Part shown: in pieces, positions 2,320-19,700 of the stretch
Numbering within the stretch: the first letter of the stretch is position 1
How the letters are laid out: every line of letters starts with the position of its first letter
IMG/VR virus record: IMGVR_UViG_3300034418_014142
Span: 1 to 21,211 of that record
DNA: 21,211 bases
Direction: 5' to 3' (one strand)
Source: a virus
Translations under genes and position numbers: made by a program
Notes under the pieces: model-generated
Databases searched by the model: none
Told to the model about the DNA's origin: nothing
Seen by the model: only the letters and a program-made list of their open reading frames with translations

Positions 2320-2356
2320 CAAAAAACCCCGAAGAAAATGGCCAAATCCTCGGGGT
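2320..2356 (-). terminator. Intrinsic terminator after HNH gene
   Basis: Read on the minus strand, ACCCCGAGGA (2356-2347) pairs with TCTTCGGGGT (2335-2326). This gives a 10-bp stem with one G-T wobble and an 11-nt loop that contains TGGCCA. Six T residues follow directly (2326-2321). The hairpin sits 75 nt after the stop of the HNH gene at 2431 and separates the late gene block from the replication-type cluster. Confidence 0.85.
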
Positions 2357-2430: not shown

Positions 2431-3060
2431 TTATATATCATAATAATCTGTCAATGTTTCTTCCGGTGTAAAATCCTTAACAGTACTGAATTTAACAATT
2501 CCTTTCTCTTTGTACTGTTCGTATCTTTTAAGAATCATGCTTGGGATACCAATTACCTTGAAATATTCTACCATATCTGATTCTGGGGTGAAGTATTTTT
2601 CGCGTTTCACCATTTCTATAAGCGTATTTCTTATAAACTTTTCACGGTACATTTGTCGACGGCCCCTTTCTTGTATAGTTAAATGCGATACAACACAAAT
2701 ATTTTCCGGTCTGCTGTCATATGGGTTGTAATTAATGTGTAGAACCTGTTTGTTATTCTGCACCTTGCCATTGAAACACTCGTATACAAGTTTCGAATAA
2801 CCACCGCCAGCAGTATGTTTTCTTATTCTCCAGGGTTTGCCCTCAACCTTACCGTTTATGCTTATTCCTGTAATCTGACCATATTCACCCCGCTGGTTTC
2901 TGATGTAGATTTCATCTTCCGCCTCAATATCTGTACACCTTAAATAACCCCAGTTGTTGGCCTCCAGTGGTAGTTTAGGATGGGGCATCCATATTTCTTC
3001 TCCCTTGGGAATGGGATAAGTGCATTGGAAAAAATGTTGCGGGGTTTCTGTAAATCTCAT
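2431..3060 (-). CDS. HNH family endonuclease-like protein (209 aa)
   Basis: Residues about 87-126 match an HNH_3-type core. LVYECFNGKV is followed by the histidine segment VLHINYNPYDSRPENICVVS, with H108 at the place of the catalytic histidine and the Asn of PENI in the last element. The usual 'nHiDgn' has become LHINYN, so activity is likely but not certain. The N-terminal 85 residues do not show a NUMOD4 motif. They have a Trp-containing beta-rich look (EIWMPHPKL, GKPWRIRKH) and may bind DNA. The C-terminal third is helical and charged. The start follows the stop of the small membrane gene by three bases, so it belongs to the end of the late transcript, and the terminator lies just behind it. 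Confidence 0.75.
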   Translation of the reverse strand: MRFTETPQHFFQCTYPIPKGEEIWMPHPKLPLEANNWGYLRCTDIEAEDEIYIRNQRGEYGQITGISINGKVEGKPWRIRKHTAGGGYSKLVYECFNGKVQNNKQVLHINYNPYDSRPENICVVSHLTIQERGRRQMYREKFIRNTLIEMVKREKYFTPESDMVEYFKVIGIPSMILKRYEQYKEKGIVKFSTVKDFTPEETLTDYYDI

Positions 3061-4034: not shown

Positions 4035-5162
4035 TTATTGAATGGCGTCCGTTTCTCCGATCACTTGGTCAGGGAAAAGGTTTAGCGGTTGTATTTTTAG
4101 TTCGGTGTTATAACCATAATAATGCATTATGCGGTTAAACGCCTTAAGCATAACTTGCTGGTCAGGTTGTATAACGGTTCTTGTAAAGTGCTGGTGTGCA
4201 ACGATGATCTCGTCCTTGTTCGAACCTAAACCGCCGCCACCTTCGTGATACAAACCAAGTAAAAGTGGTGAGGTGATGCGGTGTCCCGTTAAGATCCTTG
4301 AAGTTATCCTCGTCTCGAGGTTAACATAATAATCATCGTTTGCCGACTCAATCGGTGTAACATCTGGAGATGTTTCTGCTGAATCGCTAAACGTTGCGAA
4401 GAACTTGCCGACATTTTCAACTCCACTAAAAGCAGATGCCATTTCTTGGTAAAGTTGTTGTTGCATATCTGGATCTGGCACCCCGTTCTTAAAGTTGATC
4501 CATAAACTTGGGTTAAGTCCATTCTCCAGGTTGCTTAAGTGTAGTGTAGAAACCTGAATATCGATTTCGATATCCGAACAAGATCCTGAGTAACTTGGCA
4601 ATGGGTAATATTTAGAACCCGGTGCATAATCATAAAAGTAAAGAATCTGGTTTGGAAATTCTTCTGCCATATCTGGGTCGAACGTGTGATATGCAATTGG
4701 TTTATGCTTTTTATAGTTCTTCCAATCTGACGAGTAATAATAAAACTTAGAACGATCTTCTGATCGGTCGATTTCTCCCGCTCTTACATCACCGAACGGG
4801 ACGTGATAAAACGAGTGAATCTTTTCTGCGTCTTTTGTCCAAATAATCTGTAAAGCAAACCCGCCATAGGTTTCATAATCGAGTGATGCTTTATCGAACA
4901 CCTCGTTCCAAGATTCATATTTGTTTGCACGGTTGAGAACATAATTATATTCTTCGACCTTACATTCTAAACCCTCACCAACAACGTTTAGCGCCTTGCT
5001 GGTAATTGCCGTGCGGTTAATTGCCGATTTGTTATACAACTCGGTGACATATTGAGGGTAAAGATTATCGTCTCCAAACGAGATCCATTTCTTACCTCGC
5101 ACCTTAAAGATGTTTGGCACCGTTGGTGCTGGAACGAAATTTGTATTGAATTTGTAAATCAT
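4035..5162 (-). CDS. Phage portal protein (375 aa)
   Basis: The protein shows the portal pattern: an N-terminal 'WISFGDDNLYPQYVTELYNKS' section, where the phrase 'gdnnlyp..l..ly..S' is typical for Bacteroidota phage portals. A helical middle (WNEVFDKASLDYETYGGFALQI) follows. A C-terminal section has ITSPLLLGL, a Gly-rich turn, then LGSNKDEIIVAHQHF and 'VIQPDQQVMLKAFNRIM'. Portals form the dodecameric channel at one capsid vertex through which DNA enters and leaves. I choose ATG at 5162 (MIYKFNTNF), which starts ten bases after the upstream stop. A TTG at 5189 would add nine residues and overlap the upstream gene by 17 nt. Its place after the fibre genes and far from the protease is unusual. 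Confidence 0.88.
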   Translation of the reverse strand: MIYKFNTNFVPAPTVPNIFKVRGKKWISFGDDNLYPQYVTELYNKSAINRTAITSKALNVVGEGLECKVEEYNYVLNRANKYESWNEVFDKASLDYETYGGFALQIIWTKDAEKIHSFYHVPFGDVRAGEIDRSEDRSKFYYYSSDWKNYKKHKPIAYHTFDPDMAEEFPNQILYFYDYAPGSKYYPLPSYSGSCSDIEIDIQVSTLHLSNLENGLNPSLWINFKNGVPDPDMQQQLYQEMASAFSGVENVGKFFATFSDSAETSPDVTPIESANDDYYVNLETRITSRILTGHRITSPLLLGLYHEGGGGLGSNKDEIIVAHQHFTRTVIQPDQQVMLKAFNRIMHYYGYNTELKIQPLNLFPDQVIGETDAIQ

Positions 5163-5172
5163 ATTAAGTTGT

Positions 5173-5469
5173 TTAATTGTTTCCGGCAACGGTTATAGCG
5201 GTTTTACCATCAACCGTTATTAAGTATAGTTGCCCTGCCGTTCCGCCAGAATAATTACTGTAAAAATCTGCGTCGCTTGCATAAGGGCCCGGCAAATTTG
5301 CTGCGAACACGTTTGCCTTAGTTAATTTAGTTCCTGAGGTGCTTACTTGCACGCCGAGGTTAACCCCAGCACCGTCCGTTATTTCTTGGTAACTTGCGTT
5401 CATCCCCGTTTCACCCATATTGATGATGCCGAGGTAAGTGTCTTTTACACGTTTGTTTTCTAAATTCAT
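5173..5469 (-). CDS. Short fibre-related protein sharing an N-terminal module (98 aa)
   Basis: Residues 1-48 are clearly related to residues 1-48 of the 356-aa fibre. They share M-x-L-x-N-x-R, the dipeptide TY, N-x-G-x-TG, the ITDG-x-G element and STSG at matching positions. The rest is short: a linker and a small beta-rich end (AGQLYLITVDGKTAITV), without collagen repeats or a jelly-roll. I read it as a reduced fibre or an adaptor that docks to the same partner as the long fibre, which is inference. Its ATG overlaps the preceding stop as ATGA (4 nt), so it is probably translationally coupled to the 277-aa gene. No database family is known to me. Confidence 0.7.
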   Translation of the reverse strand: MNLENKRVKDTYLGIINMGETGMNASYQEITDGAGVNLGVQVSTSGTKLTKANVFAANLPGPYASDADFYSNYSGGTAGQLYLITVDGKTAITVAGNN

Positions 5470-6301: not shown

Positions 6302-7372
6302 TTATGCTTTAAGTTCTCCGAACATATACCAGGTATCGGTGCCCGTTTTAACTATACTCGCTCCAGAATATTGGTTCTTTAAGGAACGGTAATCGTTTGA
6401 CGAGTTAAGTGTAACCCCGACCGCACCCGTTATGCCAACCTCGCCAGTTCCACCTCGGGTAAACACCATTTGTGAACCACTTGGAAAAGCAACCGAGGCG
6501 TTCGTTGGAATAACAAACGTTGATGCACCTGTAGCGGTAAAGAACTTGTTATGATCTGCAAGAACAAGGTTAACCGTGCCTGATGTAGACGCCGTTGTCA
6601 TATAATTTGTTCCTGACGTTCCTGATGTTCCTGCTGCACCCGTTGCTCCCGTTGGTCCTGCTGTATTTACACTTTGTAGTTGCACGTTAACCGATGCTGC
6701 ATCTGGTTTGCCAACCCCGGTTTCATATTGTAAAGATACATCCGTTGATGTTGATTCCCAATATATTTCAACCGTGTCGTTAACGTTTAAACTTTGTCCA
6801 ACAAACCCAAATGTTAAAGTTTGTTCTGAGGGCACACTTGCAGATTTTCTTGCTGCAAGTGTTATGTGGTGTGAAGAATTTGGATAATCAACTGAATTAA
6901 ATTTTAACCATACTCGCACATCTTCACCTGAACCAGAAAGGTTGGAAATTAACATTGTTGTTAACATCTGATAAATTCCAGGATCTTGTATAGTTATGGT
7001 TCCACCCGATTGGGTGATGCGTTCAGATAAAGTTGTGCCGTTAAGTGTAACCTTCTGCGGTGTATTGATAACCGCAATTGCTTGATCTACACTTGAATAA
7101 AAAGATGCATAAGCACCTGTAGCGCCTGCACCGTCTCGACCATCGTTTCCTGACGTTCCTGAGGTTCCCGAGGTTCCAGATGAACCGATTAACCCCGTTA
7201 CCCCGTTAACATATACATTTCCGGTAAAGTTTATCCCCGAGGTTGACGCCTCCATTGGCATCGGGGTTCCAAATCCATCGGTGATTTGTTGAAAATCTCC
7301 GGTGAACCCTGTAGCGCCAACGTTCATAACGCCGCCGTAAGTATTCTGTATTCTTGTGTTCGTTAAATCCAC
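6302..7372 (-). CDS. Collagen-like tail fibre protein (356 aa)
   Basis: Domains in order: an N-terminal attachment-like module (1-50, shared with the 98-aa protein); a Gly-X-Y collagen-like segment (59-87, with repeated GTS triplets and NDGRDGAGATG); and a jelly-roll-like domain (about 88-235) resembling the C1q/TNF-type heads of phage fibres. A second collagen-like segment follows (239-255, PTGATGAAGTSGTSG), then a C-terminal beta domain (260-356) ending in 'DTWYMFGEL', a form common at fibre tips. Collagen-like stretches drive trimerisation. The start is GTG at 7372. No in-frame ATG precedes it, and the first residues align with Met1 of the 98-aa relative. A promoter-like element and a terminator hairpin lie just upstream, so it probably starts its own transcript. 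Confidence 0.85.
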   Translation of the reverse strand: MDLTNTRIQNTYGGVMNVGATGFTGDFQQITDGFGTPMPMEASTSGINFTGNVYVNGVTGLIGSSGTSGTSGTSGNDGRDGAGATGAYASFYSSVDQAIAVINTPQKVTLNGTTLSERITQSGGTITIQDPGIYQMLTTMLISNLSGSGEDVRVWLKFNSVDYPNSSHHITLAARKSASVPSEQTLTFGFVGQSLNVNDTVEIYWESTSTDVSLQYETGVGKPDAASVNVQLQSVNTAGPTGATGAAGTSGTSGTNYMTTASTSGTVNLVLADHNKFFTATGASTFVIPTNASVAFPSGSQMVFTRGGTGEVGITGAVGVTLNSSNDYRSLKNQYSGASIVKTGTDTWYMFGELKA

Positions 7373-7390: not shown

Positions 7391-7420
7391 TAAATATAAA
7401 AATCGATGTTTATGACAAAA
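7391..7420 (-). promoter_or_regulatory. Promoter-like element before the fibre gene
   Basis: On the minus strand TTTTG (7420-7416) is followed after exactly 17 nt by TATATTTA (7398-7391). This fits the Bacteroidota sigma-70 pattern (TTG, then TAnnTTTG) with one mismatch at the last base. It sits 19 nt before the GTG start, and its TTTTG lies inside the T-rich end of the terminator behind it. Confidence 0.6.
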
Positions 7421-7450
7421 GAAAACCGGGGTTAAAGTTAACCCCGGTTT
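7414..7450 (-). terminator. Terminator after the 745-aa lectin gene
   Basis: A perfect 13-bp inverted repeat, AAACCGGGGTTAA (7423-7435) and TTAACCCCGGTTT (7438-7450), has only two bases between the arms. The innermost pairs must open to form a loop. On the minus strand the stem is followed by TTCTTTTG. It lies 38 nt after the stop at 7488 and would end the transcript that began before 10803 or earlier. Confidence 0.75.
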
Positions 7451-7487
7451 CTCGGTTTATATAGAGACGCCTTAAGCGGCGGAATGT

Positions 7488-9725
7488 TTAGAACCAAGTT
7501 TGTCCAGGCAAGTAATAACTGCGAACATACCATTGAATTAATTCATCTGATTCTGCTGCTGTCAGATAATTATTTTCACAAAAACCAAATGCAACTATAT
7601 CGAAATTATTGGTTGCTGTTGAACTGCCAAGATCTGCACGACCAATCAAAAATTCTCCCTGGTTTGTAGTTGAATGTGAGGAAACGTTTGTATCAACTTG
7701 CGATCTGTTTATATCCAAATAATTTGAAGTTGCTATATTACCTCTATACTCGTAATTCATTATAAAATAATCACTTGTATTTGGAACTGATGCCCATTGC
7801 AACTGAACGTTTGCCGAACCATAAGATCTCATATATTGGTTTTGGTTCGAAAGGTTATTAAAGAATTGGTATCTTCCCGTGCCGTCGTTTGAATTAAAGT
7901 AAGAATAACTCTCTCCATTCGTTCTTCTTCTGACAATTGCAAAAGCACCTCTTAGATCATCAATTGCAAATGCTGGTGGCGAATAATTTGTTGAAAGGTA
8001 AGAAACCTCTGTTGCCGCATCTGGTGTGTTTAATTCCCATCTTGGTGTATTCGTTTCATACTTAACAACCGATGAAGATCCTCCCGAACCTGTAACCTCA
8101 ACCGAACCTTCAACACCTGCAACAAGATCTATAGGATAAACCTGATTCGAAGATGTTCTTATACCGTAATCTGCCGTTGTAAAGTAAGCAAAATTGCTTT
8201 GAACTAAATCGATTGGTCCAAACCAACCTCTTGTGTAGTTGTAGTCGTCCAGAATCGTTTGCATCGCTGCTTGTTCGGATGAACTTAGAGATTCTGCTAT
8301 AACAAAAGTTAAAAAGTTTGCGTTTGAACCTCCAAACGGTGTGCCACCACCGTTATTATAAGCACCGAGCAAAAAGGAATCGTTTTGCCCTGCTGAAAGT
8401 GTTGCCGTTCCTGACGAAAACACGTTACCGTTTATTGCCCATTCATATGAATCACCTGCTGTTTCTTTATTGAATGTCCAGTTACCAATAACCTCATTAC
8501 CAAAAGTTCCAAGGAAATTTGTTCCTCCACCATTTTCGCCAAAAAAGTTTGTGCCGTTTTGAACATCTCCCCATAACGCCTGACGGTAAGTTCCTCCATC
8601 GCCCCAATTATCTCCGGATAACGCACCTGCTTGATAAAAAGATTGATAATGTGCAACGTAAATATCGTTAAGATCCGTTAAATCGTTTGTGCTGAAATGT
8701 GTATCTGCATAGGATCCATTTACACCTGCTGGTTGATAACCAAGTCTGTCGAATGTGCCTGCTCCGCCGAAATCAAGTCTAAACGCTGCGTCAAGATCTC
8801 GGGGATCTTTAAGGTTGAATCTCTGCTGAGTTGGAAATAAACCAGCGAATGGATAAAAAGCATAAAGTTTGCTCCATAAACCTTCTGCTTTAAGAGAAAC
8901 AACCGCATCGTTAATTGCGTTTGCTTGGGTTGTGTCATAAATGTTAGCAATATCAATAAACGCTTGAGCATCTGCATCTGAAACGGTTACTTGTGTTGTT
9001 AATGGACATACTGCCTCATATAGTGTTGTAATCTCCGCGTTTGTAAGTTCTCTGTCCCAAATGGTATATTCATCTAAACGACCATTTAGGTAAGAACTTG
9101 TGTTTGCACGATCCCGACCAACGTTTAATAATTGTCCGGATGCTGTATATGATGTTCTTGTTGCTGTTCCAAGAGAAACATCATCAACAACAACCTTGAA
9201 AGTGTTTGTGCCAGCGTTTTGTCTGACAACAACGTGATGCCAGGTATCGTCTGTAAATACACCAGCGGGTAAACTAAAACTTTGGTTTTGTGTATTCCAA
9301 GTTACAAGAATATCTCGTATAGCACCAGGTCTTATAAGAACCCTCATTCCAGATGATCCAGGATTTCTTTTATCCCAAAGACTTTGGTTGTTTGTTGTAT
9401 CATCTAAACTCACCCAAGTTGATAACGTCCAACCTCCGGTTCCAACGGGTTCCATTTCGTTGGAATTTCCAAATGCCGCCAACCAAGAATTTACACCATT
9501 AAAAGATGCTGCTGAACCAAATTTGCCTGATGCAAAAGGGTTCATATTATTTGGACCCGCGGTTCCAAAAAACGATTCCCCAAGGGAATTTATATAGTCG
9601 TCGTCGAATTTATAATAACCCATTATATCCGTTGTAGAAATCAAGGACGCTGGACAAACGGGTGCTGGTGCTCCCCCTCCTCCAAATATGGGTGTATTAT
9701 TAAGGTTTAAGTTTAGATTTAACAT
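7488..9725 (-). CDS. Large lectin-like tail protein with LamG domain (745 aa)
   Basis: Residues 35-238 are a Laminin_G_3/concanavalin-like domain, starting with GYYKFDDDYINS, with GKFGSAASFNGVNSW in the middle, TWHHVVV near 161 and the closing LDEYTIWDRELTNAEITTLY. Residues about 248-500 are a second module I know from surface proteins of Bacteroidota phages, marked by GLWSKLYAFYPF and FNLKDPRDLDAAFRL. Residues 505-745 form a third beta-rich region, also lectin-like in appearance (FAIVRRRTNGESYSYF, then a DIVAFGFCENNYLTAAE close, which is the usual end of this fold). The opening LNLNLNLNN is low complexity. The three-part build suggests a receptor-binding or adhesin protein on the tail surface binding host polysaccharide. 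The binding target is inference. A terminator follows. Confidence 0.82.
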   Translation of the reverse strand: MLNLNLNLNNTPIFGGGGAPAPVCPASLISTTDIMGYYKFDDDYINSLGESFFGTAGPNNMNPFASGKFGSAASFNGVNSWLAAFGNSNEMEPVGTGGWTLSTWVSLDDTTNNQSLWDKRNPGSSGMRVLIRPGAIRDILVTWNTQNQSFSLPAGVFTDDTWHHVVVRQNAGTNTFKVVVDDVSLGTATRTSYTASGQLLNVGRDRANTSSYLNGRLDEYTIWDRELTNAEITTLYEAVCPLTTQVTVSDADAQAFIDIANIYDTTQANAINDAVVSLKAEGLWSKLYAFYPFAGLFPTQQRFNLKDPRDLDAAFRLDFGGAGTFDRLGYQPAGVNGSYADTHFSTNDLTDLNDIYVAHYQSFYQAGALSGDNWGDGGTYRQALWGDVQNGTNFFGENGGGTNFLGTFGNEVIGNWTFNKETAGDSYEWAINGNVFSSGTATLSAGQNDSFLLGAYNNGGGTPFGGSNANFLTFVIAESLSSSEQAAMQTILDDYNYTRGWFGPIDLVQSNFAYFTTADYGIRTSSNQVYPIDLVAGVEGSVEVTGSGGSSSVVKYETNTPRWELNTPDAATEVSYLSTNYSPPAFAIDDLRGAFAIVRRRTNGESYSYFNSNDGTGRYQFFNNLSNQNQYMRSYGSANVQLQWASVPNTSDYFIMNYEYRGNIATSNYLDINRSQVDTNVSSHSTTNQGEFLIGRADLGSSTATNNFDIVAFGFCENNYLTAAESDELIQWYVRSYYLPGQTWF

Positions 9726-9734
9726 AATTCTTTA

Positions 9735-9986
9735 TTAAATTCCTGGTGGGTTTATTGCATCTTGTTCAACCGCGGTTATCCAAGATGAAAGTGCTGCAAC
9801 ATCTGCAAGAAAAGAATTTCTTATAACCGCACCATATTCTTCTGGTGGTCCTGGATATGACATCGACAATTGCTCGGTTCCCGTTACAAAAGTAAAAGGT
9901 CCCGTTTGATCAACAAAAGTGTTTTCATCGATTTCTAAATAATCTGGCGATGCGATAAAGTAATCGTTTATTTCTTGTTGTGTCAT
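9735..9986 (-). CDS. Small virion-associated hypothetical protein (83 aa)
   Basis: A small acidic protein (start MTQQEINDYFIASPDYL) with a central beta-like stretch (FVDQTGPFTFVTG) and a helical C-terminal part (IRNSFLADVAALSSWITAVEQDAI). There is no signal peptide or membrane span. It lies nine bases before the large lectin gene and nine bases after the 96-aa gene, so it is probably cotranscribed with both. Its location suggests a small structural protein or chaperone of the adhesion complex. I do not recognise a family, and that role is inference. Confidence 0.6.
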   Translation of the reverse strand: MTQQEINDYFIASPDYLEIDENTFVDQTGPFTFVTGTEQLSMSYPGPPEEYGAVIRNSFLADVAALSSWITAVEQDAINPPGI

Positions 9987-9995
9987 AATCTTGTT

Positions 9996-10286
9996 TTAGT
10001 ATAGTGCATAGGCGCTGCCTGCAGAAACCGATGCAACGGCAGAAACACGAATCGGTTGATATCCTGCTGGTAATGCAACTGATATAGATCCTGTTGCTCC
10101 AACCGGGGTAAAACCAACCGTTGCTGCCTCGCTTAACAAAAGAGAAAAGTTTGTAACTCCAGATGCAAGTGGTGATCCAGGGGTAATTGCCTCAACGTTG
10201 TTCGGAGATGCATACTGCAACTCTTTAGCAATAACCTCGATCATAATATCTGAATTCCAAGATTCTTGAGGAGATGGGTTACTCAT
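9996..10286 (-). CDS. Small virion-associated hypothetical protein (96 aa)
   Basis: The N-terminal half is helical (MSNPSPQESWNSDIMIEVIAKEL). The C-terminal half is strand-rich and small-residue-rich (TGSISVALPAGYQPIRVSAV, then SVSAGSAYALY). This pattern of an N-terminal helix and a short beta domain is found in small virion proteins of Bacteroidota phages, but I cannot name one. It is followed by the 83-aa gene after nine bases. A TATATTTA box lies 19 nt before the start. Confidence 0.6.
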   Translation of the reverse strand: MSNPSPQESWNSDIMIEVIAKELQYASPNNVEAITPGSPLASGVTNFSLLLSEAATVGFTPVGATGSISVALPAGYQPIRVSAVASVSAGSAYALY

Positions 10287-10305
10287 AATTGTATTTTATT
10301 TTTAG

Positions 10306-10313
10306 TAAATATA
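10306..10313 (-). promoter_or_regulatory. TATATTTA box before the 96-aa gene
   Basis: TATATTTA on the minus strand in a 31-nt gap, 19 nt before the start at 10286. At the place of the upstream TTG (17 nt away) the sequence is ATG, so the element is incomplete. It may be a weak promoter, or merely A/T-rich. Confidence 0.35.
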
Positions 10314-10317
10314 ATTT

Positions 10318-10803
10318 TTAGGCACCTTGCCATAATTTTTGGTAAAAGTCCCATTTAGTTTGGGTTGTGTTCCAAACACCATAAGAAGAATAATAAACAT
10401 AACTTGAGTTTGTCTCGTTATTTGAAACATAAGGTGTGTAATTAATCTCGTTTGGTGTTAAATCTTCAAGCACCATTTGTCCCTCGTCAAGTAAATCTCC
10501 TGCTGCGGGGTTAAGTGTTGCGGTGCTTGTATTCCATAACTTGTAGTCCCAATTACCGGCGGGTGCCAGGTAAACCGAACCGTTTAAAGGATCTTCTATA
10601 GAAACGTTCGGGGTTAAGGTAATTTCAAGTTTCAGATAACGGGTGTTGCGGGTTAAGACACTTGGGACAACATATGTCCATTGTCTTGTAAACCCATTAT
10701 TAAACCCAAGGAGAAAGTAATCTCCAAACGTTTGCACGTCGTTGTCTATAGTGTCAACATATATGACAAACGTGTTTGTTGTAATCGGGGTTAACGTTAT
10801 CAT
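10318..10803 (-). CDS. Conserved-type virion protein of unknown function (161 aa)
   Basis: The protein is beta-rich throughout. It opens with TPITTNTFVIYVDTIDND and continues with YLKLEITL. The core 'NGSVYLAPAGNWDYKLWN' is followed by a Leu/Asp-rich close 'AGDLLDEGQMVLED'. This order ('nG.v.L...G.w.Y.iye' then 'l.eeG...v') recalls a protein I have seen repeatedly beside tail genes of Bacteroidota phages. Its function is not known to me. The C-terminus is Tyr/Asn/Trp-rich (SYVYYSSYGVWN). The gene has its own promoter-like element and lies behind a strong terminator, so its dose may be set apart from the capsid and tail tube. A structural role near the tail is likely but inferred. Confidence 0.65.
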   Translation of the reverse strand: MITLTPITTNTFVIYVDTIDNDVQTFGDYFLLGFNNGFTRQWTYVVPSVLTRNTRYLKLEITLTPNVSIEDPLNGSVYLAPAGNWDYKLWNTSTATLNPAAGDLLDEGQMVLEDLTPNEINYTPYVSNNETNSSYVYYSSYGVWNTTQTKWDFYQKLWQGA

Positions 10804-10821
10804 CTATAAGGATGTTTATAG

Positions 10822-10849
10822 TAAATATAGATTTGTGCTTTTCTGCCAA
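10822..10849 (-). promoter_or_regulatory. Promoter-like element before the 161-aa gene
   Basis: On the minus strand TTG (10849-10847) and TATATTTA (10829-10822) are separated by exactly 17 nt, the same spacing as at 7391-7420. The box ends 18 nt before ATG at 10803. It lies directly downstream of the terminator hairpin in the transcription direction. Confidence 0.65.
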
Positions 10850-10850
10850 T

Positions 10851-10877
10851 AAAAAAACGGGGCGTTAACCCCGTTTT
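10851..10877 (-). terminator. Terminator after the 174-aa tail protein gene
   Basis: On the minus strand AAAACGGGG (10877-10869) pairs with CCCCGTTTT (10862-10854) around a 6-nt loop. Seven T residues run from 10857 to 10851. The stop codon of the 174-aa gene is 24 nt upstream. This is the most typical terminator of the window. Confidence 0.88.
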
Positions 10878-10900
10878 CCTTAACCTCGTCTTTTTGTGTT

Positions 10901-11425: not shown

Positions 11426-11458
11426 ATTTCTTGTTTTTCTTGATTTTTAGTTTTTCTT

Positions 11459-11486
11459 TAAAGGGGAGATTAAGTTCTCCCCTTTA
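11459..11486 (-). terminator. Hairpin without T-tract after the capsid gene
   Basis: TAAAGGGGAGA (11459-11469) and TCTCCCCTTTA (11476-11486) form a perfect 11-bp stem with a 6-nt loop, 20 nt after the capsid stop. On the minus strand it is followed by AAGAAAAAC rather than T residues. It may therefore be a weak terminator, an attenuator, or an mRNA 3'-end stabiliser between capsid and tail protein. Confidence 0.55.
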
Positions 11487-11506
11487 GAATTATTGGTGTT
11501 TGGTTA

Positions 11507-12388
11507 TTATGCCAAATCGTTTGTAGAGAATTCTTCAACCAATACTCCAACACCGTTAGTGTATTTTGCGATCATTCTCATTTCCTGGTTGTCACGTGAC
11601 CACCAAGCGTCGATTCTGTCTGTATCTTCGGTCAAACCACAAACCATAACTATATGCTTCGAAGGTCCGCAAATAACGCGTTGTGATGTTCCAAATCCAC
11701 CAACCGGAACTGCGGTGATGTTTGTTCCTGGAATAACAACGCTCTGTCCCAAACCTGTTCCTGTAGAAACGCCTGGATGGTAGTGGTAAAGGTTAAGAGC
11801 AACCAAGTTTGTCATCAATGCGCGGAAAGATGCATATGACATAAACATCATAAGGTCTTCGCGATTTGAAACTGCCAATGGCAACGCGTCGATCATCTCA
11901 AGTGCTCTTGCGTAAGCGGTGCTTGAAGTGAAAGCGCCAGTTGCTCCCTGACTTGCTCCATTCGCAACTGTAACCTGAGTGATGATTTGAGAACCAATAA
12001 CGCCTTCTGCTGATTTTCTTGATTCTGCAACCATATAGTTTGCGATTTGCTCTTCGAATGGCAAGTTCTCGCCATAAGCAGATGAATCAAGTTGTGTAGA
12101 CAACCAGTAATCTCTCAAATCTGCAAGACATAGTGACTGCTTCCAAGATTTTGTTGAGTTTGTGATTGTAATTTGTGTGAAGTTTGTAGAACCACCTGAG
12201 GTCCATCCACACGCTTCGTTTTGGAAATCTGCTGTCGCTCCAAGAACGTTTACTGCAACGGTTGCTTCTGGGTAACCAGGGCGAACGTCAATGTAATCAA
12301 CCAAGTCTGCGCCAAGCACTGCCTTGGAAATCAGTAACCCCGAGTCCTCCAGGGTAAATGATGATAAATCGGAAAGTGAAAATCCCAT
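11507..12388 (-). CDS. Major capsid protein, HK97-like (293 aa)
   Basis: The place is right for a major capsid protein: directly after an acidic scaffold, which itself follows the maturation protease. The protein has the usual order of an N-terminal helical arm (SLSDLSSFTLEDSGLLISKAVL), a segment 'WKQSLCLADLRDYWL', a long helix (FEEQIANYMVAESRKSAEGVI), and an axial-domain-type section (MFMSYASFRALMTNLVAL). It ends with the strand-rich 'VIPGTNITAVPVGGFG' and 'VICGPSKHIVMVCGL', a form typical of P-domain and A-domain ends of HK97-fold proteins. It forms the icosahedral shell. No promoter lies in the 20-nt gap before it, so it is expressed with the scaffold. A perfect hairpin follows. Confidence 0.85.
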   Translation of the reverse strand: MGFSLSDLSSFTLEDSGLLISKAVLGADLVDYIDVRPGYPEATVAVNVLGATADFQNEACGWTSGGSTNFTQITITNSTKSWKQSLCLADLRDYWLSTQLDSSAYGENLPFEEQIANYMVAESRKSAEGVIGSQIITQVTVANGASQGATGAFTSSTAYARALEMIDALPLAVSNREDLMMFMSYASFRALMTNLVALNLYHYHPGVSTGTGLGQSVVIPGTNITAVPVGGFGTSQRVICGPSKHIVMVCGLTEDTDRIDAWWSRDNQEMRMIAKYTNGVGVLVEEFSTNDLA

Positions 12389-12408: not shown

Positions 12409-13011
12409 TTAGTGTTTTGTAAAGAAGTTATCCTTCTTAAGGTTTTTTAGTGCTGCAACACGTGCTGCAACTTTGTCTTCTGCGTTTGCAACTGAAAATT
12501 CTTCAGATGTTAAAGTTTTGAATTTCTCGCCTGCTGGTTCTTTAGCGAACTTAGCATACTTTTCTTTCATCATCTTAACCTCTTCTTTGATCTCTGCCAT
12601 TTCTGACACGACCTCTTCAACTGCCATAACGACTTTTTGCATCGCTTCTTTGATCTCAGCAACATCTTCCATTTCGATTTTTGGTTCGTCCTCGTGCTCT
12701 TCAGCATCGACCTTAACCTCAACCTCTTCTTCTTGTGCCTCGACCTCAACGTCAACGCTTGCTTCTTCAGAAGATTTCTCTTCAACTGAAACGATCTTAC
12801 CCTCTTCGTCAACGACGATTTTTAGGGAATCGGTCTCGTGTTCGCCCGATGGTGCTGGGGTGTTACCTTCTTCGGTAACGACGAATACAGGGTAACCTGG
12901 TTCGAATGCCTCTGCCTCAACAACGGTTCCATCAACGAGTGTTTCAGATGCGAGTTTAACCTCCATCCCAAGAACAACGCGAATTTGATTCAACTTGTTT
13001 TTGAAGTTCAT
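12409..13011 (-). CDS. Capsid scaffold protein (200 aa)
   Basis: Residues 15-80 form a small strand-rich domain (TLVDGTVVEAEAFEPGYPVFV, then PSGEHE, LKIVVDEEGKIVSVE). This is the 'L.dGt.v......G..v......pa..G.....g..i.vde.G.I..i' pattern of scaffold proteins beside Bacteroidota phage capsids. Residues 80-155 are extremely acidic and predicted coiled coil (VDVEVEAQEEEVEVKV, EIKEAMQKVVMAVEEVV). The end is basic (AALKNLKKDNFFTKH), as seen in scaffolds that bind the capsid through a C-terminal helix. It lies between protease and capsid, is probably cleaved by the protease, and starts its transcript at the box at 13041-13048. Confidence 0.82.
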   Translation of the reverse strand: MNFKNKLNQIRVVLGMEVKLASETLVDGTVVEAEAFEPGYPVFVVTEEGNTPAPSGEHETDSLKIVVDEEGKIVSVEEKSSEEASVDVEVEAQEEEVEVKVDAEEHEDEPKIEMEDVAEIKEAMQKVVMAVEEVVSEMAEIKEEVKMMKEKYAKFAKEPAGEKFKTLTSEEFSVANAEDKVAARVAALKNLKKDNFFTKH

Positions 13012-13040: not shown

Positions 13041-13048
13041 TAAATATA
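13041..13048 (-). promoter_or_regulatory. TATATTTA box before the scaffold/capsid genes
   Basis: TATATTTA lies on the minus strand, 29 nt before the scaffold ATG at 13011, in the 61-nt gap behind the protease gene. The position 17 nt upstream reads ATG rather than TTG. It would drive the scaffold, capsid and tail protein transcript up to the terminator at 10851-10877. Confidence 0.45.
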
Positions 13049-13051
13049 CTT

Positions 13052-13087
13052 TTAAACGGGTGTGACATATCTTTATTCCCCGTTTAA
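13052..13087 (-). terminator. Possible hairpin at the end of the protease gene
   Basis: TTAAACGGG (13052-13060) and CCCGTTTAA (13079-13087) can form a 9-bp stem with an 18-nt loop. One arm lies inside the last codons of the protease. No T-tract follows on the minus strand, so termination is doubtful. It lies next to the TATATTTA box and repeats the hairpin-then-promoter order seen twice elsewhere. Confidence 0.3.
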
Positions 13088-14491
13088 GATCTCGATTAAC
13101 TTTTCGACTTTCTTTTTGTCTTTCAGATATTCTTGGTAATCTTCTTCTTCGACGAAATTACCTTGTAAAGACAAACCTTTAAGTTCACCCGCCTTAACCT
13201 TTTTCCAAGTGTTCGGGTTTGTTACTCGCATCTTGGTCATCCAGGTTCCTTTTGGCACCTCCATATTGTATATGGTGTTTGCTTTATCCGTCTCTGCGTC
13301 TTCAACCACCCAAGATTCGAAAACATAAGAACCAGCATCCATATCGTCAATGTGCTGGATGTTTGTTTCTTTCGCTCTTAGTTCTCTCATAAACTTTTCT
13401 GCCATTCTTGCAATGGTGCCCTCAGAAAACTTTACATAATATGGGTTGCCATCTTCACCCTTGCGGATAATCTCAAGGTTCGGTATAGCAACGGGCCCAA
13501 CAACGATTTTCTCGTCTTCATCTGCGAATAAACCTCGCCAAGATGTAAACTCGATATTCTTGATTAACGAACCTGCTTTTCTGCCAACGAATTTACCACT
13601 TGGTTTCCAATCGCCGTTATCTCTTTCATAAATCTCGATTAAGTAACCAGGATCTTCAGGTGTTCCCTCGACACGGAAATCTGCACCTGGCACCTTGCGT
13701 GAACCCTTGCGAACGATTTCCCTGATGCGTCCTCTTGGGTTTTGTCCACCCGTTTTCCAAGATACCGCATCACCAACTTTTAGATCTTCAACCGCTGCCA
13801 TTTCTTGTTTCTGGGGTTCGACTAAACCCTTGTTAAGATATTCGTGTATCTTTTCGATATGACCTGACATATAAGACGTGTCATATGTCTTACCGGTTCT
13901 TTTAGCGATCTCGTCCATTATGTCGTTAAAGTCGTCTAAAAGCACCATTGCCTCTTTAAGATCATCGGTTGACGAAAAGTCGTTCTCAATGGCGTTCTTT
14001 TCTATAGCAAAAATACCGTCTGCTGCTCTCGCTGCTGCACGAACCATTCCATAATCATCTTCACCCTTGGAATCTTCTATAAGTTGCTTAAACGTGCCTA
14101 TAGCACCTGGGCAGATATAGAAATATTTGGTGCGATAACCGAAGATGTCCATCTCCTCGCTAAAATTCGATTTCTTAACAAGTTTATCCTCGTCGTCCAC
14201 TTGGTGTGTATATGGCGGTAAAGAACCGGTGTCTATACTAAACCCTTGCTCATACATCGAGTAACATATTGCTGCTGCTTGATCTTCTGGTTTGCCCTCG
14301 CCTAAAACAACGGGCATACAGCGGGACATAAAGTCGCTTTCAGATTCACCTGCTCTTGGTTTTACAAATTCTTCTGAACGCATATACATCCAATATTTGC
14401 CAATGGCGGGTTCGTCCACCAGGGCAATTGCATCAACGCCCGAGTTCTCGAGGTCGTCGATTATTTCTAAATTAATAACTTTTCTCTCCAT
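13073..14491 (-). CDS. XkdF-like head maturation protease with a large insertion (472 aa)
   Basis: The protein has the two ends of an XkdF-type (Peptidase_S78_2) protease. The N-terminus carries the GVDAIALVDEPAIGKYW element. The C-terminal part runs from VVGPVAIPNLEIIR through YYVKFSEGTIARMAEKF, with the likely catalytic histidine at 380 (NIQHID), the ESWVVED element (392-398), VPKGTWM, and the likely nucleophile S441 in LKGLSLQG. Between them, at about 40-315, lies an insertion. It has a Cys-containing helical motif (DFMSRCMPVVL...QAAAICYSMY), a helical region (110-220), and a Tudor/SH3-like domain at 237-312 (LKVGDAVSW, GGQNPRG, PGYLIEIY) that resembles DUF2945/HVA. It processes the scaffold and capsid in the prohead. 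A TATATTTA box ends only five bases before ATG. Confidence 0.82.
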   Translation of the reverse strand: MERKVINLEIIDDLENSGVDAIALVDEPAIGKYWMYMRSEEFVKPRAGESESDFMSRCMPVVLGEGKPEDQAAAICYSMYEQGFSIDTGSLPPYTHQVDDEDKLVKKSNFSEEMDIFGYRTKYFYICPGAIGTFKQLIEDSKGEDDYGMVRAAARAADGIFAIEKNAIENDFSSTDDLKEAMVLLDDFNDIMDEIAKRTGKTYDTSYMSGHIEKIHEYLNKGLVEPQKQEMAAVEDLKVGDAVSWKTGGQNPRGRIREIVRKGSRKVPGADFRVEGTPEDPGYLIEIYERDNGDWKPSGKFVGRKAGSLIKNIEFTSWRGLFADEDEKIVVGPVAIPNLEIIRKGEDGNPYYVKFSEGTIARMAEKFMRELRAKETNIQHIDDMDAGSYVFESWVVEDAETDKANTIYNMEVPKGTWMTKMRVTNPNTWKKVKAGELKGLSLQGNFVEEEDYQEYLKDKKKVEKLIEILNGE

Positions 14492-14496
14492 CGATT

Positions 14497-14504
14497 TAAA
14501 TATA
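14497..14504 (-). promoter_or_regulatory. TATATTTA box directly before the protease start
   Basis: TATATTTA on the minus strand ends five bases before the ATG at 14491, in the 18-nt gap after the tape measure gene. No TTG lies 16-17 nt upstream. If it is a -7 element, the RNA would start at or next to the start codon. Confidence 0.4.
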
Positions 14505-14509
14505 AATTT

Positions 14510-16690
14510 TTATAGTCGTGCTATATCTGATATGCGTTTGTTCGCCTCTTGTTGTGAAGACATCTCCGATGCAACAACATATGTCTTGATGATCGGTTGT
14601 TTTTGTCCCATTAAGGCGTTCTCTTGTCCTGAACTTAAGTTGCCCATTGAACGTTGATCACCTTGTCCGAGTGAATTCATCTTCTCGAGCATAGGCAAGA
14701 ACGATTGGGTGGCGTTGCGGTTAACTATAAACTCACCGCCCTCGAGTTCACCAAACGGAGACATAATTCCACCTTGGGCGTGTGATCTCCCGGTTAATAA
14801 ACCGCCTTGTCTAAACTTGCTTGGTGATGAACCAGCACCACCAGCACCGTCTCCGCCACCAGCACCACCACCAGCGGGTTGAAACTTTTGACTTGCGATT
14901 TTAGCAACGTTTGCTAAACCTGCTGCGATAATTAAACCCGCTTGTATCGCTGGATAACCTGGGAAAAGTATAGTTGCTGGGTTTGCAGATGCTGCGGATA
15001 ACACTTTAGTTGCTGCCAAGTAAGTGTCTATAGTTGCCGTTGCAATATTAACACCCTTTTGCACGTTAAACGCTCTCTTTTGTGCTTTTTCGTTTTCACC
15101 AGCAAACGTGTTTACTAAATCTGCGATGATGTTAAGTCCATCCTTTACCGCTTGTGCTTTTGCCTCGAGTTTAGCACGCTCATAATCTTTTTCTGCCTGA
15201 ATATCAGAGTCTCTAAATTCTTTATTCTTGGCGTCCACCGCGTTATTCCTTGCATCGGTTAACGCCGTTGTATCTAAATTTAACTTTTCCGCTTGCTCTA
15301 TAAGTTTGTCATAATATTCCTCGATCTTCTGTATCTCGAGGGCACGACGCTCTTCTTCTGTATCTGCGGTTGCCTCGGCGATTGCCTTAAGTGTGTCTTG
15401 CTTTTCTTTTTCCTTGGCGATTTCTTTTTGGCGTGCCTCTTCGTCTTTCTTTTCCTTTTCCTCTCTTGCTTTATCCGCATCCGCTTGACGCTTTTTCTCG
15501 ATTTCGCCCAACTTAAGGGTATATGCTTCTTCTGCTTCTTCCCTTAACCTCGCCTTTTCCTTTTCGGTGGCGTCAAGACGTTCTATAGAAATTAACGCCT
15601 CGTTGCGTTCGATCTCTGCTTGCTTTTCTGCACGCTCGTTTGCGTCGTCTATACTTGCTAAAAGGTTCTTCTGCTCTGCCTTGCGAATCTGATCTTCTAT
15701 AGCAAGTCGTTGTTTAGCATATGCTTCTGCCTCTGCTCGTTGTTTATCCCTTAACGCCTTTTCTTGGTCGAAAAGTTCTTTCTGCTTTTGTTTAGTTTCT
15801 TGTTGCCTTTGGGCATATGCTGCTTCTGCCTCGGCGAGTTTATCGAGATCTTCTGCTGACGAATCTGACAAGGCGTTAAGTGCTCTTAGTGCCTCCACCC
15901 TTTGTCTTGCAAGTTCTTCTTCCTGGGCGGCAAGATCGATTTCCGCTTTCCTTACATCTTCCAGCGCGGTTAACCTTTCTTGATAACTTAAGTTCTCGTC
16001 GTTGATCTTAAGTTTAGCATCTGCTATAAGAGCGTTTTGTTTAGCACGTTCGACGTTTAGAGAGCGTTGTGCATCATCTATACCTTGTAGTGTATCTGTA
16101 AGCGCCGCCGCTGCTTTTGCCTCTTCAAGGATTTCTGCACCTATACCCGATACAGCACCTCTTGCATCTTCCATTGCACCTTTAAAGTCACCAGAAAAGA
16201 ATTTAGCAATGGCACCAGCAAATTGCAACACCCTGTCTCTTACAACATCCACCGCTGCAGATATGCCGGCGAGCACCTGGTCGAATTGTTCTGCTCCCTC
16301 TTTAGTCGAGGTGAACGCCTTGAATAAACCTGTAAGGGCAAGGACAACTGCTGCGATTACCGCTCCAATTGGGTTTGCGACAAGTGTAAGCAACGCCTTG
16401 TTAAGTCCACCGACACCTTGTATAACACCGCCGATTGGTCCACCGATACTGCCAAGTGCACCGCCCAAACCTTTTGCTGCGACGTTACCCTTAAGCAACG
16501 CCTTTTCGTTTTGCTTAACCGCGTTGTTTAGTTCTTTAAATTCTTTAGAACCAACGGGTGCTTTTGCCAAGGCATCTCTTGCGTTCTTCGCCGCCTCTTC
16601 AAGTTCGTTGACGGAATTTACCGTTTTATCGATAACCTGTCCGTCTTCAACGACTTTAACCTTAAAAGTTATTTCTTTATTCTTTGCCAT
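14510..16690 (-). CDS. Tail tape measure protein (726 aa)
   Basis: A short N-terminal beta part (ITFKVKVVEDGQVIDKTV) leads to a helical region with a hydrophobic, Gly-rich stretch (about 75-125, LTLVANPIGAVIAAVVLAL). Residues 210-510 are a long charged coiled coil (Glu/Lys/Arg/Gln-rich). After a second hydrophobic part (518-600), a Gly-rich linker (606-622) leads to the C-terminal element GGLLTGRSHAQGG and LEGGEFIVNRNATQ, which is typical of tape measure proteins of Bacteroidota phages and prophages. It sets tail length, and by the usual relation of about 1.5 angstroms per residue it would give a tail near 110 nm. It lies behind the tail tip genes. I see no tail assembly chaperone pair upstream. 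Confidence 0.9.
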   Translation of the reverse strand: MAKNKEITFKVKVVEDGQVIDKTVNSVNELEEAAKNARDALAKAPVGSKEFKELNNAVKQNEKALLKGNVAAKGLGGALGSIGGPIGGVIQGVGGLNKALLTLVANPIGAVIAAVVLALTGLFKAFTSTKEGAEQFDQVLAGISAAVDVVRDRVLQFAGAIAKFFSGDFKGAMEDARGAVSGIGAEILEEAKAAAALTDTLQGIDDAQRSLNVERAKQNALIADAKLKINDENLSYQERLTALEDVRKAEIDLAAQEEELARQRVEALRALNALSDSSAEDLDKLAEAEAAYAQRQQETKQKQKELFDQEKALRDKQRAEAEAYAKQRLAIEDQIRKAEQKNLLASIDDANERAEKQAEIERNEALISIERLDATEKEKARLREEAEEAYTLKLGEIEKKRQADADKAREEKEKKDEEARQKEIAKEKEKQDTLKAIAEATADTEEERRALEIQKIEEYYDKLIEQAEKLNLDTTALTDARNNAVDAKNKEFRDSDIQAEKDYERAKLEAKAQAVKDGLNIIADLVNTFAGENEKAQKRAFNVQKGVNIATATIDTYLAATKVLSAASANPATILFPGYPAIQAGLIIAAGLANVAKIASQKFQPAGGGAGGGDGAGGAGSSPSKFRQGGLLTGRSHAQGGIMSPFGELEGGEFIVNRNATQSFLPMLEKMNSLGQGDQRSMGNLSSGQENALMGQKQPIIKTYVVASEMSSQQEANKRISDIARL

Positions 16691-16706: not shown

Positions 16707-16714
16707 TAAGTATA
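16707..16714 (-). promoter_or_regulatory. TATACTTA variant box in a palindrome before the tape measure gene
   Basis: The minus strand reads TATACTTA, a variant of the boxes elsewhere. It overlaps the perfect 10-bp palindrome AAGTATACTT (16708-16717) and lies 16 nt before the start at 16690. No TTG is at the expected distance. It may be a promoter, an operator, or chance in A/T-rich DNA. Confidence 0.3.
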
Positions 16715-16731
16715 CTTTTATCCGTTTTTGA

Positions 16732-19700
16732 TTATGGGAACCACTCGAATTCTACCGTGTAAACGTCTTCCCCAATTGGTCCAAATGTTAGTGTGTAGTA
16801 AGGTGCGCTTGTTCCACTATCAATATGTACAATATCTCCGTTTTTGCGAACGACATATGCAACCGATCCACCATAAATTGCTGGAACTATAACTTGGAAT
16901 CTGAACCAAGAACTCGGAGAATATAATGGGGCAAAAGAATTGTCAAAGTTTGCACCTGTTGATACCTCATAACCGTTTGCAAGGAAACTCTCGCCGTCAT
17001 AAGATATCTCGTTGTACACTTGTAACTCAGTGGTTGTGCCTGAGTTGTTCTCAAGTGTTACATCTACAGAATCTGTTCGGTCTCCGCACTCCGCCCAAAT
17101 TGTTTGTGCATTTGTACAACCACCTGTTGCACCCGCTGTTGCACCAGCAACCTGAACATATACTGCTCCATCAGAAACATAACCATCTGCTGTTGCGCCG
17201 ATCGGAGATTCTTGGTAAGGGTCGTTATAGAACGCTGTTGCGTCATAAAAGTTTGGTGTGTCATAATACATTGTGTTGGTTCCAACCGCACCTGTTGTAC
17301 CTTGTCCACAACAACCACCTGCCTCTGTTGAACCGTATCCAAGCACATCGTCATATCCAAGTTCGTCACAGATACAACCGCTGGCGTTTCCAACCTGTAC
17401 TATAGTTTTACCATCTCGCCCAATTAACACCGGGGAACTGCTACCGTTTTCTTTATACCAGGTGCCAGGGGTTAACAAACCATAACCAGCGCTGGAGAAT
17501 GCAAGTGTCGATGTTGCAAGAGATGTACCGTCATAATAAATGGAAACCGGATAACTTGTACAACAAACGGCGGTGCAGAAATTTGTAGATGCACACGCGG
17601 TTGATGAAACGGTTAACGGGTTACAAGAACAAGATGTTCCAACTCCAATGGATATAACAAAACCTGAACGGTCAACTTGCAAAATCGTTGTGCCGTCGCT
17701 ATAGTAACCTGCTGCTGCGGGCACGAATAAACTTTGATCCTGGAATAATTGGAAGGTGCCACCAAAAGTGTCTTGTGCAGAATAAAGGGTATATTGTGCA
17801 AACCCATTACAACAATATGCGTCACACAAGGTGTCACCAAAACATAACCCTGAATATGGATAAGATTTAACACCCGAACCAGGTCCTGTAGTGTCGATGT
17901 TTATACCAACTGTACCAAGTTTAAGTAATTTAACCTTAACCTCGCTTGTTGCACCGAGTACATAATCTTTAATTTCCAGTGGCATATACCAAGCATCCTT
18001 AACAAATAAAAGGTCGTTAAACCTTAACTTGGTTACATCTTGGTAATCAAGTACAAATGTGCCCTCTAAAATTCTGGACGAAGAAGAGAACGTGTCGTTG
18101 TACCAATCTTCCCAATACAAGTTGTAAGCATCTCTTGGGGTTCTACCCGAACCAACGTTTGGTGTATCTTCTACATCCCAAAATTGTTCGACGTTTTTCC
18201 AGTTAAGGTCGAACGCTGATTCGTTAAATGGGTATCGATCGTATTGAGAAAACACAGGATATTCTGTTTTTGCAGTGCTTACACTTGGGTTTACAGTGTC
18301 GTTGGAAATATACCAAGTCAATGGTGAGGTTTGCATTCCGTTATAGAACATAAGACGAGGTTTAACCTGTATAGGTTGGCGCTCGTTCTCGGTATCTTTT
18401 GCAAAATGGGGAATCAAGAAATTGGCGTTGTTCCCAATGGGTGCAAGCGGCACCGGGGAAAATATACTTGTCAGGTCTCGGTTACCTGTAATAACCTCTA
18501 TACCAGAATCTTGTTTGCGTTCTCCAAAAACCTCCTTATATTCTTGTTCATAAGAAAAGTTGTATATGTCAGATTCTTTAGAATCCTTAAATGTAATTTG
18601 TCTCTGCTGAGTATAGAACGTTGGCGTTATAGAAACGTCCTTGGCGTTGTTTAGTTTATCGGTCCAGTCTTTTTGTTCGCCTTGTCCAACCCAATCCTTC
18701 CAAGGTTCTATATAAAAGTTCTTAGGGTTCTCAGGGTCTGGTTCCCAGATTAACTTAAACCTGTCGTTTATACCTTTTATAAAATCGATTTGCTTTGTGT
18801 TTGCTGGCATAAGACCAGCAGGGTTTACAACGTTTGGTGTTATACCAGAAAATATACCACTGCGTAAATCGAACGCCGAGTTGGTTTGCCCACTTGGAAC
18901 AATAACATATAATTCAACCGAGTCACCTTTAGTAATGTTTGCGGATAAGGTTGTTTCAAAATTACCTGAAATCCCAAATTTAACAACAGCGCTTGCTGGT
19001 TTACCAACTGGACTTGGTAAATCCAGATATTGTTGAGTATAATCAATGTAACCAGTTTGTGTTGCTCTTTTAACACCGTTAACAAACAATTGGAATTGCA
19101 TGTTAAAGGTATAAGGTGGTGCTGTTTGGTAAGCAGGTGGTTGTGGGATCTGGAATTCAAATATCATATCTTTAATTGTAAAAAGATATGGTCCACCGGT
19201 AAAGGGTGCGATAAACTCGGATAATGTTGGCAACCAAGCGTTACCGTTGTTGTATACTACAGAGGGAAAGTTAAGTTTCTTTGCATCACCTGGGGTCACC
19301 GTACCAAAGTCTTGGAAACCGTTTTGTGCTTCGAAATTGGAATCTGAGCGCTGGGTTGGCAATGCCTCGTTGCTGGAAATTAAGTATAAATCTGTAAACC
19401 AACCCTGGTCTAAAAATTCAGATTCATAAGTAAACCCTGCCTCCTCGAAAATTTTATCCCAAACTACCTTGGCACGAATTGCTGGTTTAAATTGGGTGGT
19501 GTCCAACGGAAAAGACGAGGATGTAAAACCATATTTAGAAACTACACCATCGTATTTAGATAATGTGCTTTGGTTTGGGTTACCGCTTGTATAGGTGTAA
19601 CCCCATTCTGCCAACGGATAAACTATATCACCGTCAAACAATTTGCGTTCCCAAGATTTAGTTATTTGGGTATAGTTTATGGTGTGGTTAAAGTCGTCCA

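Follow-up and report, generated by a model that had tools for sequence, protein, structure and literature searches.

A candidate phage-specific promoter, in places joined to intrinsic terminators, and an ECF-type sigma factor in an uncultured phage family

Here we describe a bipartite promoter motif of an uncultured phage family, identified in an incomplete virus record of 21,211 bases (IMG/VR record IMGVR_UViG_3300034418_014142, G000 in our set; hereafter the window, to which all window coordinates refer). The motif, [TA]TGnCA-N14-YATAYTTA, stands mainly before structural genes, and at two places in the window it lies directly behind an intrinsic terminator hairpin. As sequence features, these promoters and terminators are almost certainly real. 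It is likely, though with much less assurance, that the promoters are read by an extracytoplasmic function (ECF)-type sigma factor encoded by the phage family itself, a pairing suggested by comparison of the relatives. On the broadest reading, to which we give an even chance, an undescribed and widespread family of aquatic phages, probably infecting Bacteroidota, takes over the host polymerase with its own ECF-type sigma factor through a dedicated bipartite promoter that departs from the host box at the nearly invariant base, and uses stop-and-restart modules in which the T-run of the terminator is the upstream edge of the promoter and which have been copied within genomes.

Two Terminator-Promoter Cassettes

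A preliminary description of this DNA had proposed that two places share the order hairpin, T residues, TTG, exactly 17 nucleotides (nt) and TATATTTA, and this order is borne out at both. On the minus strand, cassette 1 (7451-7391) reads GAAACCGGGGTTAAC-TTTAACCCCGGTTTT-C-TTTTG, with exactly 17 nt between the TTG and TATATTTA; cassette 2 (10879-10822) reads GGAAAACGGGGTTAACGCCCCGTTTTTT-TA-TTG, followed at exactly the same distance by TATATTTA. A further 18 nt lead to the start codon in each case (GTG 7372 and ATG 10803, respectively), so that of the 18-19 nt proposed earlier only the shorter distance occurs. Both hairpins have the G+C-rich stem, short loop and T-run of intrinsic terminators, and both outfold every shuffle tested (Table 1). 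TTG-N17-TATATTTA is present in two copies in the record, at the two cassettes only, against none for a reversed-pattern control. The hairpin core CCGRGGTTAACGCCYCGG is common to both, which suggests that the cassettes are copies of one unit.

Both cassettes are kept at the same genes in the relatives L005 and L006, which are about 70% identical to the window at the DNA level; the orthologues of the 356-amino-acid (aa) gene, for example, stand behind the same cassette. Pairing in the hairpins is preserved through base change (CCGGGG/CCCCGG to CCGAGG/CCTCGG), and the spacer length stays at 17 although the spacer sequence differs. In cassette 1 of these relatives, an insertion of about 13 nt lies between the terminator tail and the -33 element, indicating that the T-run and the -33 are separable. 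The hairpins, the bipartite motif, its spacing, its position before genes and its conservation can be read directly from the sequences and their comparison; late timing and termination in vivo are inferred.

The Bipartite Motif in Related Phages

Capsid and portal searches yielded at least 80 IMG/VR contigs as relatives, and spacing tests were carried out on 52 dereplicated loci (608 kb). Of 155 family boxes, 30 have a TTG at spacer 17 from TATATTTA, where any other spacer accounts for 3.3 on average, and.TGnCA was found at the same position 34 times, against 0.7 per other spacing (maximum 3). The conserved -33 element is longer than TTG, giving [TA]TGnCA-N14-TATATTTA. Single-base variants of the box (CATATTTA, TATACTTA, TATATCTA, and GATATTTA) give a lesser spacing signal, and portal upstream regions show box variants in register; the general promoter form is [TA]TGnCA-N14-YATAYTTA, with TTG-N17-TATATTTA as its strongest form. 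The pattern that the preliminary description had seen in two copies is found again in the relatives, with none further in the record.

Nearly all the sites stand before genes. Relaxed-motif sites comprise 49 unique ones outside the window, and 49 of 51 precede an open reading frame (ORF). The relaxed box (YATAYTTA plus two further forms) was picked after inspecting portal upstream regions, so that this count is not independent of the choice; spacing measured with the fixed box is a cleaner test. In 12 long records, 25 of 28 strict sites lie before starts. Sites at orthologous genes share descent, so that site counts are not independent events and p-values are only indicative. The genes behind the sites encode portal, scaffold/capsid, and tail proteins, placing the motif mainly before structural genes, and the distance from box to start codon varies from 3 to 48 nt with the spacing to the -33 fixed. 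An 18-base form of the motif was found in 14 viral contigs, 11 of which carry the portal of this phage family. In a blind 16-base scan of viral contigs, a family capsid or portal gene was present, among the matches listed, in 34 of 119 loci, and the site preceded an ORF in 33 of these 34 versus 19 of the 85 others.

Within the window, TATATTTA occurs five times (1.5 in shuffles), every copy intergenic and on the coding strand; the preliminary description would have been refuted by a box as frequent inside genes as before them. Three window sites score at least 16 bits, where Markov shuffles give 0.015, and each of the six top-scoring sites is intergenic and on the coding strand. The preliminary description had covered two of four good promoters in the window, missing those at 13041-13068 and 10306-10333.

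Terminators accompany this promoter class in the relatives as well. An intrinsic terminator lies at most 60 nt upstream of 18 of the 53 family promoters, compared with 9 of 590 other gene starts and 32 of 5000 places drawn at random (Fisher p 4e-15). Eight orthologues of the 161-aa gene carry a strict promoter, each with a terminator immediately before it, and a more distant clade shows the same terminator-promoter pair in front of another gene in six loci. Portal and scaffold promoters mostly lack one, and the terminator is therefore a frequent but not obligatory partner. The conserved position of these units in the structural block, together with the enrichment of terminators, makes separate transcription units likely, as the preliminary description had supposed in proposing that structural transcripts are insulated; the separate setting of doses that it also proposed is conjectural.

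Several loci show further peculiarities. In the portal promoters of L143-L146 and L160, the box ends 3-7 nt before the ATG, which would yield leaderless mRNAs. A leader of 44-47 nt separates the promoter from the probable scaffold gene (191-192 aa) in L188, L177, and L067, and contains a small hairpin (TCTGG...CCAGA) whose form is conserved among relatives. In L008, L045, L051, L054, L086, L123, and L124, TTTTTGTCAAATG...CAATATATTTATTG precedes a small conserved gene (MKAYFLNI..., MKTYFLNI...); no family portal or capsid was found in the available DNA of these seven loci, which possibly belong to another group with the same type of promoter.

Comparison With the Host Promoter

The phage family is uncultured and may be aquatic, with Bacteroidota as the probable host phylum. 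A DNA-level similarity search against cultured phages gave no match to the window, the closest isolates are Nonlabens phages (portal identity 25%), and a portal search of 84,980 genomes found no prophage or host. Of the translation starts, only 13 of 509 are Shine-Dalgarno-like and 66% have A at -3, as in Bacteroidota, and leaders are A-rich. Were the host to lie outside this phylum, the argument that the promoter is not the host's would depend on the scan of all genomes alone.

The Bacteroidota sigma-ABfr promoter has TTTG at -33 and TAHHTTTG at -7; promoters of Flavobacterium johnsoniae almost always have G as the last base of the -7, with a -33 that is barely visible (PMC6847099). The phage promoter is similar in layout and spacing and has a near-identical -7 box, and both cassettes have TTG at spacer 17, matching the host -33. 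It differs in that the box, TATATTTA, ends in A instead of G and in its long and strong -33 (WTGnCA), and host genomes make no use of the form found in the phages. TTTGTCA-N14-TATATTTA occurs 12 times in 395 Bacteroidota genomes (15 for the reversed control, i.e., chance level) and 10 times in 100 genomes from the family to which Flavobacterium panici belongs (8 for the control), and a G-ending box with the same -33 has a single match in 100 genomes. Throughout 257 Gb of bacterial and archaeal genomes, the 18-base form appears in only 39 scattered contigs. The match to the Bacteroidota consensus claimed in the preliminary description is therefore not upheld, and the sequences are better read as a phage-family-specific promoter than as a host consensus promoter.

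It is nonetheless conceivable, if unlikely, that the main sigma factor of the host reads these sites, with TATATTTA as a tolerated variant of TAHHTTTG and a strong TTTG at -33 offsetting the missing G. Seven of eight box positions agree with the host -7, so that the host sigma might still read the box, TTTG is the published -33, and TATATTTG boxes, some of them preceding genes, are present in Nonlabens phage P12024S, the nearest isolate. This account has to contend with the near-invariance of the G and the faintness of the -33 in the host (PMC6847099), and it leaves the extra CA of WTGnCA unexplained. Moreover, in the phage family TATATTTG does not exceed background when combined with this -33 (1 versus 0.35), and Bacteroidota genomes use neither the A form nor the G form with this -33. 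Host-type boxes were also considered as early promoters and rejected, since about 10 of 301 TAHHTTTG boxes before genes in 12 long records were too few; a scan of the window with a sigma-70-type consensus was uninformative (52 promoter-like sites versus 45 in shuffles).

A Phage-Encoded ECF-Type Sigma Factor

A T4-gp55-like or classical sigma factor was at first dropped as a candidate reader, PF04542 having found it only in two relatives that lack a portal promoter of the type described here. The idea was taken up again because Sigma70_r4_2 (PF08281), with weak matches in 11 of 23 family records, revealed an ECF-type protein throughout the family. These sigma-like proteins form one family of about 40 loci, mostly of 155-200 aa. 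In the majority of loci their gene follows that for the portal at a distance of a few kb and has a TTG start. The sigma70-ECF model TIGR02937 matches end to end (E=6.6e-10, 38.9 bits against a curated cut-off of 42.9). In the structure predicted by AlphaFold2 (pLDDT 86.8), two helical domains are joined by a low-confidence linker (84-90), which corresponds to the ECF plan of sigma-2 and sigma-4 domains, a linker and nothing else. The top Foldseek matches in the PDB are nearly all ECF sigma factors (probability up to 1.00); for region 4 there is a match to the structure of sigma-E on -35 DNA (TMt 0.75, rmsd 1.2). We use the terms "ECF-type" and "ECF-like" because the scores of the sequence models fall below the curated cut-off.

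Promoter variants track the sigma subclades: loci with the helix IPRTT have TTGCCA in 6/6, the sigma factors of the TTGTCA clades have the helix IPRTS, and the L143-L146 clade has C at box position 5, a match that fits co-evolution. The record of the window appears to end before the sigma gene, which is carried by the record of its closest relative tested (G004), and presumably the phage of the window has one too. In several clade members (L138:12315, L139:10866, L150:12661, and others), the sigma gene is closely preceded by a hairpin and T-run. Nonlabens phage P12024S was considered as an example of a sigma-promoter pair and set aside, its sigma-like gp33 being accompanied by TATATTTG boxes and not by this motif.

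Several points weigh against a phage sigma factor as the reader, in addition to the closeness of the box to that of the host. Every Pfam and NCBIfam sigma match, PF08281 included, is below its curated cut-off, no whole-protein Foldseek match passes E 0.001, and no sigma homologue was found in the window itself. The clade structure of the promoter variants could reflect shared descent alone. Four loci (L128, L157, L163, and L165) have the sigma gene and no strict motif in the available DNA, perhaps owing to a diverged motif or partial pieces. Finally, two records encode a second, small, gp55-like sigma factor (L285 in G016 and L286 in G021), that of G016 matching the T4 gp55-like late sigma factor (phrog_234, E 9e-10).

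A phage activator or an alternative sigma factor of the host might instead read the motif, the ECF-like protein regulating something else; we consider this improbable. In its favour, a bipartite motif with a separate conserved upstream block would also suit an activator site next to a -7 box, most of the -33 is lost at several weaker window sites that retain the box, and Q-like and gp55-like families are among the family matches. Conservation of both blocks at an unvarying distance of 17 nt is, however, the pattern expected of contact by sigma-2 and sigma-4, and the phage family has a conserved sigma factor made up of just these two domains; the absence of the motif from host genomes argues against an alternative host sigma factor. 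That absence and the presence of the sigma gene in relatives both emerge directly from the sequence comparison.

With a phage-encoded ECF-type sigma factor as the probable reader, phage-specific late promoters would drive head, portal, and tail genes across the phage family, and would be recognized by this factor with the host core RNA polymerase and not by the main sigma factor of the host. Polymerase from the capsid promoter (13068) would stop at 10879-10852, restart just after 10822, stop again at 7451-7422, and restart after 7391. Where the T-run of the terminator abuts or enters the -33, one short module would end one transcript and start the next. It is very doubtful that TATATTTA is instead a translation-related A/T-rich leader element and that the hairpins only protect mRNA 3' ends, with no separate promoters: leaders are indeed A-rich without Shine-Dalgarno sequences and the box lies near start codons, but a fixed -33 spacing with a variable distance to the start codon is the reverse of a ribosome signal. 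Chance similarity in an A+T-rich genome, which would account for TATATTTA alone at 1.5 expected window copies, can practically be dismissed given five intergenic copies on one strand and the spacing result of 34 versus 0.7, and was already refuted by conservation at orthologous genes in relatives.

Gene Layout and Further Sites in the Window

The genes of the window are essentially all on the minus strand, and only 695 of 21,211 bases (3%) are intergenic (Table 1); a primosomal protein is also encoded. The promoter site at 13041..13068 recurs in L005 (as ATGTCA-N14-TATACTTA) and in other relatives, and the capsid gene is probably transcribed from it jointly with the preceding gene. At the two weak sites, the register between -33 and box is loose (14524 and 16734). 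The box of the first (14497-14504) ends 5 nt upstream of ATG 14491 and would yield a leaderless mRNA; at the place equivalent to the second, L005 has TATATTTA.

The hairpin downstream of the capsid gene is not a terminator on the coding strand, as there is no T-run in that direction. It may protect the 3' end of the capsid mRNA or be a processing site, and the capsid gene and the next gene could thus differ in dose without a new promoter. Behind the terminator at 2355-2321, TATATTTTT stands in place of TATATTTA.

Table 1. Genes, promoter sites, and hairpins of the window
Feature	Position	Strand	Remarks
Two HNH genes, one NUMOD4-HNH	1720-2241 and 2431-3060		
Terminator CCCCGAGGA...TTCTTCGGGG-TTTTTT	2321..2355	-	Separates the two HNH genes; not followed by a phage-type promoter
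Portal gene	4035-5189		
356-aa gene of cassette 1	6302..7372	-	GTG start 7372; minor tail / virion structural families
Promoter of cassette 1, TTGTCA-N14-TATATTTA	7391..7418	-	22.6 bits, best site of the window; kept in L005, L006
Intrinsic terminator hairpin of cassette 1	7422..7451	-	13 bp stem, then C-TTTTG; RNA fold -20.4 kcal/mol, z -4.6
Laminin-G-type fibre protein gene	7488-9725		
96-aa gene		-	Downstream of promoter 10306..10333
Fourth promoter, ATGGCA-N14-TATATTTA	10306..10333	-	15.8 bits; ahead of 96-aa gene; no terminator
161-aa gene of cassette 2	10318..10803	-	ATG 10803; function not assigned
Promoter of cassette 2, TTGGCA-N14-TATATTTA	10822..10849	-	16.6 bits
Intrinsic terminator hairpin of cassette 2	10852..10879	-	12-13 bp stem, T-run; RNA fold -17.1 kcal/mol, z -4.2
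174-aa gene			Between capsid gene and 161-aa gene
Hairpin 3' of capsid gene	11457..11488	-	-17.5 kcal/mol, z -4.7; then GAAAAAC
Major capsid protein gene, HK97 fold	11507..12388	-	AlphaFold2 mean pLDDT 69.6; Foldseek best E 3e-10 to phage capsids
200-aa gene	12409..13011	-	Directly ahead of capsid gene; probable scaffold, judged by position
Third promoter, ATGTCA-N14-TATATTTA	13041..13068	-	21.8 bits; ahead of the ~200-aa gene preceding the capsid gene; no terminator
XkdF-type protease gene	13073-14491	-	
Weak promoter-like site, ATAGCA-N14-TATATTTA	14497..14524	-	8.8 bits; equal-scoring sites also in shuffles
Tape-measure gene	14510-16690	-	
Weak promoter-like site, TAATCA-N14-TATACTTA	16707..16734	-	8.2 bits; before tape-measure gene

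Significance and Comparison With Known Systems

Little seems to be known of gene timing in phages of Bacteroidota, which are among the commonest in the sea and the gut, and our literature searches found no paper on a phage-specific promoter or its sigma factor for such phages. If the proposed pairing is true, a sigma-promoter pair that the host polymerase should ignore would make late timing directly testable, late genes and transcription units could be annotated in many metagenomic contigs, and Bacteroidota, for which few tools exist, might gain an orthogonal expression switch. With some 60 bases, the stop-and-restart module would allow a compact genome to divide a block of genes into units that are each started separately.

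The late promoters of phage T4 (TATAAATA) are read by gp55, lack a -35 element, and depend on the sliding clamp. They resemble the promoters described here in having an A/T-rich box before late genes and a small phage sigma factor (putatively so in the present phages), and differ in that the spacing here is fixed and the -33 strong; of the relatives tested, only two yielded a gp55-like protein, beside the ECF-type sigma factor. Phages phiEco32, 7-11, and SU10 encode a sigma factor (ECF-type in the annotation of SU10) and have phage-specific middle and late promoters (PMC4331800, PMC4281155). An ECF-type phage sigma factor (here carried by relatives of the window's phage), reuse of the host core RNA polymerase (here a conjecture), and few, well-conserved phage promoters before structural genes are common to both groups. 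The other three phages have enterobacterial hosts and a single compact motif (tAATGTATAtA or a TGATGT core) without a -33/-7 pair, and no recurring promoter-fused terminator is described in the passages compared. The kind of system is one known from phiEco32 and 7-11 (PMC4331800, PMC4281155); what appears to be new in the literature searched is the combination, in phages probably of Bacteroidota, of terminator-promoter modules with a bipartite promoter that resembles the host box yet differs from it.

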